Positions 32,011 to 36,758 of a DNA stretch of 64,000 bases are shown here, one piece after another. The DNA is from Pseudomonas marginalis (lineage in GTDB: Bacteria > Pseudomonadota > Gammaproteobacteria > Pseudomonadales > Pseudomonadaceae), in NCBI RefSeq assembly GCF_008692035.1, contig NZ_VTFG01000001.1, forward strand, positions 2,790,001 through 2,854,000, in the 5' to 3' direction. Positions within the stretch are counted from its first letter, which is position 1, and every line of letters begins with the position of its first letter. The translations under genes and the position numbers were made by a program. The notes below the pieces were generated by a model. It was not told the DNA's origin and searched no databases. It was given only the letters and a program-made list of their open reading frames with translations.

Positions 32011-32045
32011 ATTGCCTGCTGATTCACCTATGGCAAGCGGGTTTA

Positions 32046-32078
32046 TTGTGGTGAGCGGGCTTGCCCCGCTCACCACAA
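32046..32078. repeat. REP-like palindrome, GTGGTGAGCGGGCTTGC type
   Basis: TTGTGGTGAGCGGG and CCCGCTCACCACAA are perfect arms around CTTGC. Sequence and the central GCTTGCC resemble pseudomonad REP elements, but of a different subfamily from the GTGGGAGGGGGCTTG copies elsewhere in this window. Confidence 0.8.
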
Positions 32079-32176
32079 GAAGCCCACTCTCCCTTCAGCC
32101 ACGACAGCCCCTCACCACAAGACCCAAGCCGCTCATGCTATGGTGCACTCCCCTTACCGTGCCTGCCCATCACCGT

Positions 32177-33943
32177 ATGATCGTGATCCCTCGCCCGCTG
32201 CGCCTGACCTTCTACTCCCTGCTGATCATCGCCGGTGCGCTGCTGGCCGCGGCCTTGGCCACGCGCCATGCCGAACGCCAGGCTTTGGTGGACGATGCGG
32301 CCCGCGCCAACCAGCAGCTGGCGCTGTACGCCAATTCCCTGCACACCCTGATCGAACGCTACCGCGCCCTGCCCGCCGTGCTGGCGCTGGACTCGGAGAT
32401 GATCAACGCGCTCAAAGGCCCGTTGGACGCCGGCACCCAGGACCTGCTCAACCGCAAGCTCGAACGCATCAATGGAGCGGCGCAGTCCTCCACCCTGGAG
32501 TTAATGGACCGCACCGGCCTGGCCGTGGCCGCCAGCAACTGGAACTTGCCGAGCAGTTATGTCGGGCACAACTACGCGTTTCGGCCGTATTTCAGCCAGA
32601 CCAAGAGCCAGGGCACCGGGCGCTTTTACGCGGTCGGCGTAACCACCGGGATCCCGGGGTATTTCCTCTCCAGCGCCGTGCTGGATGAACACGAGCAGTT
32701 CCTTGGCGCCATGGTGGTGAAACTGGAATTCCCTGAGCTGGAGCGCGAATGGGCCCAGGGCGATGACCTGTTGCTGGTCAGCGACGCACGCGGCATCGTG
32801 TTTATCGCCAACCAACCGGGCTGGCGTTATCGCAACCTGCACCCGTTGTCGGCCAGCGATCTGGTCGAACTCAAGGCCACCCGCCAATACGACAAGAAAC
32901 AACTGCAGCCGCTGGACACCCAGACGTTGCAACGCTTCGACGAAAACAGCCACCTGATGCGCGTCAACGGCCCCGATGGCAACGCCAATTACATCTGGGA
33001 GTCCCTGCCGCTGAAGGCCGAGGGCTGGACCCTGCACCTGTTGCGCAAACCCCAGTTCGCTTTTGAAGACCAGCGCAACGCCGGCCTTGCCGCCGCCGGC
33101 TCCTGGCTGGCGCTGGTGTTCCTGGTGCTGTTCCTCAGCCAACGCTGGCGCCTGGCCCGTTTGCGCCAGCGCAGCCGCGAAGAACTCGAACAGCTTGTGG
33201 AAGAGCGCACCCAGGCCCTGCGCACGGCCCAGGATGGCCTGGTGCAATCGGCGAAATTAGCGGCGTTGGGGCAGATGTCCGCCGCCCTCGCCCATGAGAT
33301 CAACCAGCCGCTGACCGCCCAGCGCATGCAGTTGGCGACCCTGCGGTTGCTGTTGGACCACGGTCGGGTGGACGACGCCTACAAGGCCCTGACCCCACTG
33401 GACGATATGCTCACACGCATGGCCGCGCTGACCGGCCACCTCAAGACCTTTGCGCGCAAAAGCCCCAGCGGCCTGCGCGAACGCCTTGACCTGGCCACCG
33501 TGGTCGACCAGTCCCTGCACCTGCTCGACGCGCGCCTGCGTGATGAAGCCATCGGCACCGTGCTGGACCTGACCCGCCCCGCCTGGGTACGCGGCGACGC
33601 GATCCGCCTCGAACAGGTGCTGATCAACCTGCTGCGCAACGCCCTCGACGCCATGGCCGACAAACCCCGCAAGCGCCTGGAAATCCGCCTGCATGCCGAC
33701 CAGCAACTGTGGCAACTCACGGTCAGCGACAGCGGCGGCGGGATTGCCGAAGAGCACCTCAACAGCGTGTTCGACCCGTTCTTTACCACCAAGCCGGTGG
33801 GCGACGGGCTCGGCTTGGGCCTGGCGGTTTCCTACGCTATCGTGCACGAATTGGGCGGACGCCTGAGCGCCAGTAACCGTGGCGACGGCGCGGTATTTAC
33901 CCTGACCTTGCCTATCGCGCTGGAGACACCCGACTTATGTTGA
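32177..33943 (+). CDS. C4/C5-dicarboxylate sensor histidine kinase, DctB/MifS type
   Basis: 588 residues from ATG 32177. An N-terminal membrane segment (about 8-28), a periplasmic double PDC/Cache sensor of about 260 residues ([30 protein letters not shown]), a second membrane segment ([18 protein letters not shown]), a coiled coil and the kinase core follow. The core shows the phospho-acceptor [15 protein letters not shown], the N box [14 protein letters not shown] and [12 protein letters not shown]. It overlaps the response regulator gene by 7 bases. The downstream kgtP gene and its sigma-54 promoter suggest that the ligand is 2-oxoglutarate, as in P. aeruginosa MifS, rather than succinate. 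Ligand assignment is inference. Confidence 0.9.
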
Positions 33944-35271
33944 ACGCGGTGATTGTGGTCGATGACGAAGCCAGCATTCGGACGGCCGTCGAGCAATGGC
34001 TGAGCTTGTCGGGGTTCGAGGTGCAGTTGTTCAGCCGCGCCGAAGCCTGCCTGGCGCAACTGCCCAAGGACTTTCCCGGGGTGATCCTGAGCGACGTGCG
34101 CATGCCCGGGCTCAGCGGCCTGGAGCTGCTGGCCGAAGTGCAGCGCCGTGACGCCGACCTGCCCGTCATCCTGCTGACCGGACATGGCGATGTACCGATG
34201 GCCGTCGAAGCCATGCGCGACGGCGCCTACGACTTCCTGGAAAAACCCTTCAGCCCCGATGCCTTGCTCAACAGCCTGCGCCGCGCATTGGACAAGCGCG
34301 GGCTGATCCTCGAAAACCGCCGCCTGCACCAACAGGCCGATCATCGGGCACAGTTGGAGTCGAGCCTGCTCGGCGTGTCCCGTGGCTTGCAGAACCTGCG
34401 CCGACAGGTACTCGACCTGGCGACCTTGCCGGTCAACGTGCTGATCCGTGGCGAGACCGGCAGCGGCAAGGAGCTGGTCGCCCGTTGCCTGCATGACTTC
34501 GGCCCCCGTGCGAAAAAACCGTTTGTGGCGCTCAATTGCGCGGCGATTCCCGAGCAACTGTTCGAGGCCGAACTGTTCGGCCACGAAAGCGGCGCCTTCA
34601 CCGGTGCCCAGGGCAAGCGCATCGGCAAACTGGAGTACGCCCATGGCGGCACGCTGTTCCTCGATGAAATCGAAAGCATGCCCCTGGCCCAGCAAGTGAA
34701 GCTGTTGCGGGTGTTGCAGGATCAGAAGCTGGAACGCCTGGGCTCCAATCAAAGCATTCATGTGGATTTACGCATCATTGCCGCCACCAAGCCGGACCTG
34801 CTGGAAGAAGCCCGCGCCGGGCGCTTTCGCGAAGACCTGGCCTATCGGCTGAACGTTGCACAACTGCGCCTGCCGCCCCTGCGCGAGCGCCGCGAAGACA
34901 TCCCGCTGCTGTTCGATCACTTTGCCCAAAGCGCCGCCGAGCGCCTGGGCCGCAGCGCGGAACCGCTGAGCGGCGCGCAGTTGGGCCGCCTGCTCAGCCA
35001 TGACTGGCCGGGCAACGTGCGTGAGCTGGCCAACGTCGCCGAACGCCAGGTGCTGGGCCTTGGCGAGCCGGAGCCGGAAGGGATCGAAGCCGGGCAATCG
35101 CTGGCCGCGCAGCAGGAGGCGTTCGAGGCCCATTGCCTGAAGGCTGCATTGACCCGGTATAAAGGCGATATCAAGGCGGTGCTGGCGGAGTTGCAGTTGC
35201 CACGGCGCACCTTCAACGAAAAGATGCAGCGCCATGGGTTGGCCAGGGACATGTTCCTGAAAGACGAATGA
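33937..35271 (+). CDS. sigma-54 activator, DctD/MifR-type NtrC-family response regulator
   Basis: 444 residues. The receiver domain (1-120) has the phospho-acceptor Asp in VILSDVRMPG. The AAA+ domain shows Walker A GETGSGKE, the sigma-54 contact loop GAFTGA, Walker B GTLFLDEIESM and the arginine finger region. The C-terminal Fis-type helix-turn-helix begins near AALTRYKGDIKAVLAELQLP. All sigma-54 activation motifs are intact. The TGA stop is itself part of an 18-base palindrome that starts a pair of presumed binding sites for this protein. Target: the downstream kgtP gene. Confidence 0.92.
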   Translation: MLNAVIVVDDEASIRTAVEQWLSLSGFEVQLFSRAEACLAQLPKDFPGVILSDVRMPGLSGLELLAEVQRRDADLPVILLTGHGDVPMAVEAMRDGAYDFLEKPFSPDALLNSLRRALDKRGLILENRRLHQQADHRAQLESSLLGVSRGLQNLRRQVLDLATLPVNVLIRGETGSGKELVARCLHDFGPRAKKPFVALNCAAIPEQLFEAELFGHESGAFTGAQGKRIGKLEYAHGGTLFLDEIESMPLAQQVKLLRVLQDQKLERLGSNQSIHVDLRIIAATKPDLLEEARAGRFREDLAYRLNVAQLRLPPLRERREDIPLLFDHFAQSAAERLGRSAEPLSGAQLGRLLSHDWPGNVRELANVAERQVLGLGEPEPEGIEAGQSLAAQQEAFEAHCLKAALTRYKGDIKAVLAELQLPRRTFNEKMQRHGLARDMFLKDE

Positions 35272-35319
35272 GCGGATTTCCGCTCATCACCCTCAAAAAC
35301 ATCAGCGACTTTCCGCCCA
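35269..35319. promoter_or_regulatory. two tandem upstream activator sites for the DctD/MifR-like regulator
   Basis: TGAGCGGATTTCCGCTCA (35269-35286) is a perfect palindrome around TT. TCAGCGACTTTCCGCCCA (35302-35319) matches it at 14 of 18 positions. Centres are 33 bases apart, about three helical turns, and lie about 109 and 76 bases upstream of the start site predicted from the sigma-54 promoter. Confidence 0.7.
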
Positions 35320-35360
35320 AAATAAAACCCAGCCCCTTCTAGACCGGGCCTTCATCTACC

Positions 35361-35376
35361 TGGCACAGCTCCTGCT
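35361..35376 (+). promoter_or_regulatory. sigma-54 promoter of kgtP
   Basis: TGGCACAGCTCCTGCT matches the sigma-54 consensus TGGCACGNNNNTTGCW at 10 of 12 fixed positions, including the GG and GC elements at correct spacing. Transcription would start near 35387, leaving a leader of about 52 bases. Confidence 0.8.
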
Positions 35377-35438
35377 ATAGCCCCAGCCAGGCTGCGCTCG
35401 CGCCGCTCCATAAAAACAACTAGATGAAGGATCCTTCA

Positions 35439-36758
35439 ATGGATAACTCCAACACCTTGCCCCTGGGGTCGGCGGCAGCGCCGGCCAAGGAACGCACCAC
35501 CACCAGCCGCATCAAATCGATCTTCAGCGGATCGGTCGGCAACATGGTCGAGTGGTACGACTGGTATGTCTACGCCGCGTTCTCGCTGTACTTCGCCAAA
35601 GCCTTTTTCCCGAAAGGCGACACCACCGCCCAATTGCTCAACACCGCCGCGATCTTCGCCGTGGGCTTCCTGATGCGCCCCATCGGTGGCTGGCTGATGG
35701 GCCTGTACGCCGACCGTGCGGGTCGCAAAGCAGCACTGATGGCGTCGGTCCTGCTGATGTGCTTCGGCTCGTTGATCATCGCCCTGAGCCCCGGTTACGA
35801 AACCATCGGCGTCGGCGCACCGATCCTGCTGGTGTTCGCCCGCCTGCTGCAAGGCTTGTCGGTCGGTGGCGAATACGGCACCTCGGCCACCTACCTGAGT
35901 GAAATGGCCACCAAGGAACGTCGCGGTTTCTTCTCCAGCTTCCAGTACGTGACCCTGATCTCCGGCCAGCTTATCGCCCTGGCCGTGCTGATCGTGCTGC
36001 AGCAGATCCTTACCACCGAGCAACTGTACGACTGGGGCTGGCGTATCCCGTTCGCCATCGGCGCCCTGTGCGCAGTGGTCGCGCTGTACCTGCGTCGCGG
36101 CATGGAAGAAACCGAGTCGTTCACCAAGAAGGAAAAAGCCAAGGAAAGCGCCATGCGCACCTTGATGCGCCACCCCAAGGAACTGATGACCGTGGTCGGC
36201 CTGACCATGGGCGGCACCCTGGCTTTCTACACCTACACCACCTACATGCAGAAGTACCTGGTGAACACCGTCGGCATGAGCATTTCCGACTCCACCACGA
36301 TCTCGGCGGCAACGCTGTTCCTGTTCATGTGCCTGCAACCGATCGTCGGTGGGCTGTCGGATAAAGTCGGGCGTCGGCCGATCCTGATCGCCTTCGGCAT
36401 CCTCGGCACGCTGTTCACCGTACCGATCCTCACCACCCTGCACACTATCCAGACCTGGTGGGGCGCGTTCTTCCTGATCATGGCCGCGCTGATCATCGTC
36501 AGCGGCTACACCTCGATCAACGCCGTGGTCAAGGCTGAACTGTTCCCAACCGAAATCCGCGCCCTGGGCGTGGGCCTGCCCTATGCACTGACCGTGTCGA
36601 TCTTCGGCGGTACCGCTGAATACATCGCGCTGTGGTTCAAGAGCATCGGCATGGAAACCGGTTACTACTGGTATGTGACTGCGTGTATTGCAGTGTCGCT
36701 GGCGGTCTATGTGACCATGAAGGACACACGCAAGCATTCGCGCATCACCACGGACTAA
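35439..36758 (+). CDS. kgtP: MFS 2-oxoglutarate:proton symporter KgtP
   Basis: 439 residues; ATG 35439 is chosen because AAGGA lies 7 bases before it (the in-frame ATG at 35424 has no such site). Twelve hydrophobic segments, with GNMVEWYDWYVYAAFSLYFA in the first, LMRPIGGWLMGLYADRAGRK in the loop 2-3 signature, and ARLLQGLSVGGEYGTSATYL are nearly the same as in E. coli KgtP. It belongs to the metabolite:H+ symporter branch of the major facilitator superfamily and imports 2-oxoglutarate across the inner membrane. Control by the adjacent two-component system through sigma-54 is strongly suggested by the promoter. Confidence 0.9.
   Translation: MDNSNTLPLGSAAAPAKERTTTSRIKSIFSGSVGNMVEWYDWYVYAAFSLYFAKAFFPKGDTTAQLLNTAAIFAVGFLMRPIGGWLMGLYADRAGRKAALMASVLLMCFGSLIIALSPGYETIGVGAPILLVFARLLQGLSVGGEYGTSATYLSEMATKERRGFFSSFQYVTLISGQLIALAVLIVLQQILTTEQLYDWGWRIPFAIGALCAVVALYLRRGMEETESFTKKEKAKESAMRTLMRHPKELMTVVGLTMGGTLAFYTYTTYMQKYLVNTVGMSISDSTTISAATLFLFMCLQPIVGGLSDKVGRRPILIAFGILGTLFTVPILTTLHTIQTWWGAFFLIMAALIIVSGYTSINAVVKAELFPTEIRALGVGLPYALTVSIFGGTAEYIALWFKSIGMETGYYWYVTACIAVSLAVYVTMKDTRKHSRITTD

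Follow-up and report, generated by a model that had tools for sequence, protein, structure and literature searches.

A conserved pair of predicted MifR-type regulator sites upstream of the sigma-54 promoter of kgtP in Pseudomonas

Between the gene for a response regulator with a sigma-54 activation domain and the gene for a 2-oxoglutarate carrier, a 6.9 Mb Pseudomonas genome carries two similar 18-base sequences, the first of which begins on the regulator's own stop codon. What are these sequences for, and to which of the two genes do they belong? The genes follow one another in the order class I fumarase, sensor kinase, response regulator and MFS carrier, and all positions below refer to the 64,000-nucleotide stretch of this genome that was analysed (the window). 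An initial annotation had read the two sequences as tandem activator sites through which the adjacent regulator controls the carrier gene, kgtP. We consider it very probable that the stretch is a MifR-type tandem enhancer together with the sigma-54 promoter of kgtP, switched by that regulator.

The protein-coding parts are readily assigned. The sensor histidine kinase, of the DctB type, lies on the plus strand in an open frame running from a TTG at 32012 to 33943, although by eye the ATG at 32177 is the likelier start. Its HATPase_c domain scores above the cut-off and its dCache_1 and HisKA domains below, and residues 81-343 resemble the sensor domain of S. meliloti DctB (2zbb, E 2.7e-41) and also V. 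cholerae DctB (3by9). The response regulator, of the MifR type (33937-35271, plus strand), has the Response_reg, Sigma54_activat and HTH_8 families, that is, a sigma-54 activation domain and a Fis-type helix-turn-helix. Downstream, kgtP (35439-36758, plus strand) lies in a frame open from 35424, with the start ATGGATAAC at 35439 assigned from relatives. Its product, an MFS protein, scores 564.5 bits against NF007710 (PRK10406), for which the cut-off is 550, and is thus a KgtP-family 2-oxoglutarate carrier.

The predicted distal enhancer site, site 1, TGAGCGGATTTCCGCTCA, spans 35269-35286 (26.6 bits), its first triplet being the regulator's TGA stop codon (35269-35271). The predicted proximal site, site 2, TCAGCGACTTTCCGCCCA, follows at 35302-35319 (17.9 bits), 33 bases past site 1 from centre to centre and identical to it at 14 of 18 positions. 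The sigma-54 promoter box, TGGCACAGCTCCTGCT (35361-35376, plus strand), is of the -24/-12 kind, GG-N10-GC, and fits TGGCAC-N5-NTGCN with the GG and GC ten bases apart; if transcription starts near 35386, as the box would imply, the two site centres fall at about -109 and -76. On recheck, the coordinates and letters of both sites and of the box, as well as the likeness, spacing, placement and stop-codon overlap described in the initial annotation, all proved correct. Its description of both sites as 18-base palindromes holds for site 1, which is symmetric at eight of nine pairs (16 of 18 positions), but not for site 2, a weak palindrome at four of nine pairs (8 of 18). With site 2 so corrected, the finding is sound and the reading well supported. 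Judged by sequence, the two like, helically phased sites upstream of the sigma-54 box have the layout of a tandem enhancer of the DctD/NtrC class.

How unusual are these two sites? With a symmetric matrix built from 119 different sites of other loci, the window's two sites being left out, sites 1 and 2 rank first and second within the 64 kb. Among 7 Mb generated by a first-order Markov model, the score of site 1 was reached 0 times and that of site 2 three times, and no pair at a spacing of 32 or 33 was as high as site 2's score; 21 Mb of random sequence likewise held no pair at 31-33 attaining 8 bits. In the 6.9 Mb genome the sole zero-mismatch match to TRAGCGGATTTCCGCTCA is site 1. None of 25 other single matches in the genome has a positive-scoring partner 31-34 bases away. 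Further targets in the same genome were sought, and the only match with a downstream box (L037) was rejected, as it sits in a coding sequence that by eye resembles an amino-acid permease.

The comparison with relatives covers 154 kgtP upstream regions: 112 come from genomes of the genus (30 + 82), 20 are loci from two other genera in the same family, and 22 are named loci. From 149 genus genomes, nine without a regulator closer than about E 1e-144, one whose match lay at a contig end (G087), and nine further genomes (G147, examined later, among them) stayed outside the promoter count. This left 130, of which 112 are within the 154 and 18 are not: seven with a distant kgtP, nine linked to a TAXI-TRAP system, G027 with a PcaT-like neighbour, and G035 without a KgtP orthologue. 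Of a second set of 80 loci, 31 were considered for that count and 22 of them were included. The initial annotation had proposed looking for absence of the palindrome upstream of kgtP in relatives; what one finds instead is a pair of sites in 148 of the 154 regions and one strong site in the remaining six, which are six of the seven loci of one genus, counts that do not represent independent events, as the genomes are related and some named loci are apparently the same genomes as other rows. The site starts are 32 bases apart in 107 of the paired regions and 33 apart in 41. These kgtP promoters had also served to train the search matrix, but spacing played no part in it. Which of the two sites scores higher varies by species. 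Outside the 154, kgtP pairs 31 apart are seen in four genomes (G151, G167, G001 and G147), with one or both sites weak, the weak site in G151 and G167 scoring 11.3 bits.

The sigma-54 box is found by a strict pattern in 151 of the 154 regions and by a relaxed one in all 154. The distance from the start of the proximal site to the box falls into classes of 58-60 bases (108 regions), 69-70 (15) and 116-196 (25), so the two sites shift together as a unit; promoters were sorted by this distance into near, -69/-70 and far groups. Between enhancer and box lies a further conserved stretch, CCCCTTCTAGACCGGG (35333-35348, plus strand), which by column information, taken without a control, keeps a constant distance to the box in both the near group and the -69/-70 group and is without conservation in the far group. 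Past the box there is an A-rich leader motif (35412-35420, plus strand), a possible Crc/Hfq target. The loose AANAANAA-like pattern that it fits occurs in 152 of the 154 kgtP leaders, a count made without a control. For PA5530, the P. aeruginosa homologue of kgtP, a Crc signature is named and Crc/Hfq repression proposed (PMC4482717, in excerpt), and the leader seen here would fit such repression.

To which gene the pair belongs can be read from genomes in which the two genes have come apart. In seven genus genomes the regulator and kgtP lie 3.1-11.7 kb apart. The pair and the box stand directly before kgtP in all seven, and the 1.5 kb after the regulator is free of boxes and of sites scoring more than 9 bits. 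A single strong site stands before kgtP both in G265, where some 278 kb separate the gene from the regulator, and in G184, where kgtP is on another contig; in G035, no site is seen within the 1.5 kb that follows the regulator. That the pair stays before a separated kgtP argues against a terminator or any other function tied to the regulator gene. One could otherwise take site 1 for a hairpin terminating or shielding the sensor-regulator transcript, with the likeness of site 2 incidental, since it sits on the stop codon and the RNA of 35255-35330 folds at -15.8 kcal/mol (z -3.53 against shuffles). The plus strand, however, is without a T run downstream, the region's one terminator-like match is on the minus strand (0.5 expected), and a second site lies 32-33 bases away in 148 of 154 regions; together with the seven gene-separated genomes, this makes a hairpin function very improbable. 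A likeness of two short stretches by chance could appeal to the weaker single matches in the genome, which exceed the reversed-pattern control somewhat (12 against 7 and 19 against 10, the window's own included). Conservation at near-fixed spacing refutes this, and, with the window ranks and the lack of any pair in random sequence, it reduces the probability of coincidence to almost nothing.

The regulator's stop is the first triplet of the distal site in 28 of 140 readable loci, with TGA, TAA and TAG all occurring, and the overlap is missing elsewhere; it is therefore recurrent and not required. By group, it is seen in 18 of 21 far and 8 of 90 near promoters (genus genomes), in 2 of 19 named loci, and in 0 of 10 loci of other genera. 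The compact arrangement is perhaps an old one that later insertions of DNA, to either side, have opened up.

Which regulator, then, would occupy the sites, and in answer to which signal? The initial annotation's assignment of the regulator to the DctD class stands as to class, but a tree of 47 chosen regulators places the protein better in the MifR branch than as a DctD: it falls in a MifR-type branch of 36 rows (support 100/99) that also holds regulators, about 70% identical, from the genus of P. aeruginosa, and the genome's two other DctD-class relatives (53-54%) lie outside it. In P. fluorescens SBW25 the gene designated mifR is PFLU4954 (PMC10482368). P. aeruginosa itself has three DctBD-type systems, DctBD, MifSR and AauSR (PMC7962211, in excerpt). 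There, growth on 2-oxoglutarate is lost in mifS, mifR and rpoN mutants and restored by PA5530 supplied in trans, and the 2-oxoglutarate-dependent expression of PA5530 drops in mifS, mifR and mifSR mutants (PMC4482717, in excerpt). A P. aeruginosa genome was sought by way of printed primer sequences, and 0 of 18 genomes of that genus matched; with no such genome among those searched, the link to MifR (PA5511) is drawn from protein family, gene neighbourhood and motif. In our literature search we found no mapped MifR site, though one may exist in publications beyond that search.

The sites might be real and yet serve chiefly another member of the class, DctD or AauR, in which case kgtP would answer C4-dicarboxylates or acidic amino acids. 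The close resemblance of the site to a DctD site speaks for this, as does the presence in the genome of the two class members at 53-54%. On the other hand, the reported AauR site, TTCGG-N4-CCGAA, differs (PMC7962211, in excerpt), and a MifR-type gene adjoins kgtP in most loci examined (82 of 100 and 30 of 30). In P. aeruginosa, moreover, mifSR mutants lose growth on 2-oxoglutarate and keep it on succinate, fumarate and malate (PMC4482717, in excerpt). A DctD-pattern search of the genome gave matches below control (92 against 144), so DctD's own sites were not located by it. We regard a different main activator as unlikely. That the MifR-type regulator controls kgtP in answer to 2-oxoglutarate, as first proposed in the initial annotation, is supported by the conservation of the pair, the linkage to kgtP, the MifR branch and the DctB-like sensor, together with the genetics of P. 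aeruginosa as an analogy. As for the signal, 2-oxoglutarate is the likely one by what is reported for P. aeruginosa, to which two additions must be made: the specificity reported for MifS takes in glutarate beside 2-oxoglutarate, as a second signal (PMC7654740, in excerpt), and L-asparagine is reported as an inducer of PA5530 (PMC7962211, in excerpt). With these additions the preferred reading remains that of a MifR-type switch for kgtP.

Regulators of this class act as phosphorylated dimers on two phased sites, where they oligomerise, loop to the sigma-54 polymerase and drive promoter opening with ATP. The sites, their conservation and spacing, their linkage to kgtP over the regulator gene, the box and the protein families are observed here; regulator binding, phosphorylation, looping and a start near 35386 we infer, and the 2-oxoglutarate signal we carry over from P. 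aeruginosa. On such a scheme, the DctB-like kinase would sense external 2-oxoglutarate, and perhaps glutarate too, and the phosphorylated MifR-type regulator would bind both sites as adjacent dimers, which a spacing of 33 bases, about three turns, would set on the same face of the helix. The bound regulator would then oligomerise and loop to sigma-54 polymerase at 35361-35376, driving kgtP, and the cell would import 2-oxoglutarate.

Is the switch always coupled to KgtP? Nine genus regulators have a TAXI-TRAP solute receptor-like protein downstream instead; two of these nine receptors were profile-scanned and scored 393 and 390 bits, the cut-off being 84. Scored with a matrix from kgtP promoters only, the TAXI promoters show a pair scoring over 9 bits with a spacing of 32 or 33 in eight of nine and a box in all nine, the ninth promoter (G001) having one site at 21 bits and a second at 6.1 bits. 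A KgtP orthologue is missing from eight of the nine genomes (best match 28-36% identity; none in G012), and G001 has both carriers. Five named loci, including P. toyotomiensis, P. composti and P. dryadis, also combine TAXI with the pair. TAXI-TRAP receptor genes behind a MifR-type regulator, a box and kgtP-like sites are found at L203, L205, L206, L208-L213, L101, L102, L218, L222, L223, L231 and L234. Ten TAXI-linked rows of the regulator tree lie on one side of a branch supported at 95/91. In G151 and G167, site pairs precede both the TAXI gene and the distant kgtP. The pair precedes a PcaT-like MFS gene (L200), 57% identical to KgtP, in G027, which is without a KgtP orthologue. Three Stutzerimonas loci (L226, L242 and L247) have the regulator, with no KgtP, TAXI or pair within the stretch examined.

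KgtP-linked and TAXI-linked regulators coexist in G001 and G147. The kgtP-side sites of these two genomes (L342 and L343), which are 31 apart, have altered outer bases: by eye, one end shows CTGGC or TTAGC and the opposite end GCTAG or GCCAG. Outside the Pseudomonadaceae, near related regulators of Telmatospirillum and Oceanospirillum, pairs are also seen (L244, 3976-4024; L285, 7513-7563), with no recognised box nearby.

Similar sites before TAXI-TRAP genes, in genomes mostly without KgtP, suggest an exchanged 2-oxoglutarate importer. Import of 2-oxoglutarate by these TAXI systems is predicted from the shared switch alone, and the description of a 2-oxoglutarate-specific TAXI system in Proteus mirabilis (PMC11574862, in excerpt) makes this substrate plausible. 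The site thus predicts a substrate for TAXI-TRAP systems in Pseudomonas species that lack KgtP. We lean, by a small degree, toward a broader proposal: that the MifR-type pair marks a carrier-neutral switch for 2-oxoglutarate import, behind which KgtP, a TAXI-type TRAP and, in one genome, a PcaT-like MFS protein have been exchanged across the Pseudomonadaceae, the TAXI-TRAP systems accordingly importing 2-oxoglutarate, and that the kgtP-side sites of G001 and G147 have had their outer bases altered as though to hold the two circuits separate.

Among known systems, two-component and RpoN control of a 2-oxoglutarate carrier is also described for KguS-KguR and c5038 of uropathogenic E. coli; inverted repeats are marked for KguR there, the gene cluster is a different one, and E. 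coli kgtP itself is given as not sigma-54 dependent (PMC5318444, in excerpt). In the DctB-DctD system of R. meliloti, tandem sites for a DctD-class activator likewise lie before the sigma-54 promoter of dctA. Taken on the minus strand, site 1 agrees with the printed R. meliloti DctD site at 16 of 18 positions and site 2 at 13, the difference from the DctD site being a symmetric change at positions 3 and 16; the carrier there is DctA and here KgtP (PMC11077940, in excerpt). Closest is MifS-MifR/RpoN/PA5530 of P. aeruginosa, in which sensor, regulator, sigma factor and carrier are of the same kinds. A motif printed for the PA5530 promoter, its role left open there (PMC4482717), matches in its letters 3-15 the first 13 letters of one form of the site, a form exact in 9 of 154 promoters. 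The mifS promoter of P. aeruginosa is said to share this motif (PMC4482717, in excerpt), whereas the sensor gene in the window has no site upstream (best score -4.9). Here, too, unlike in P. aeruginosa, the genes adjoin, and the stop codon of the regulator lies within the distal site. The locus is a member of a control type that is already known, and probably represents the MifSR circuit. Its conserved geometry and the exchange of carriers are what deserves following up, and a known 2-oxoglutarate circuit, with a promoter motif of open role in print, gains a defined site.
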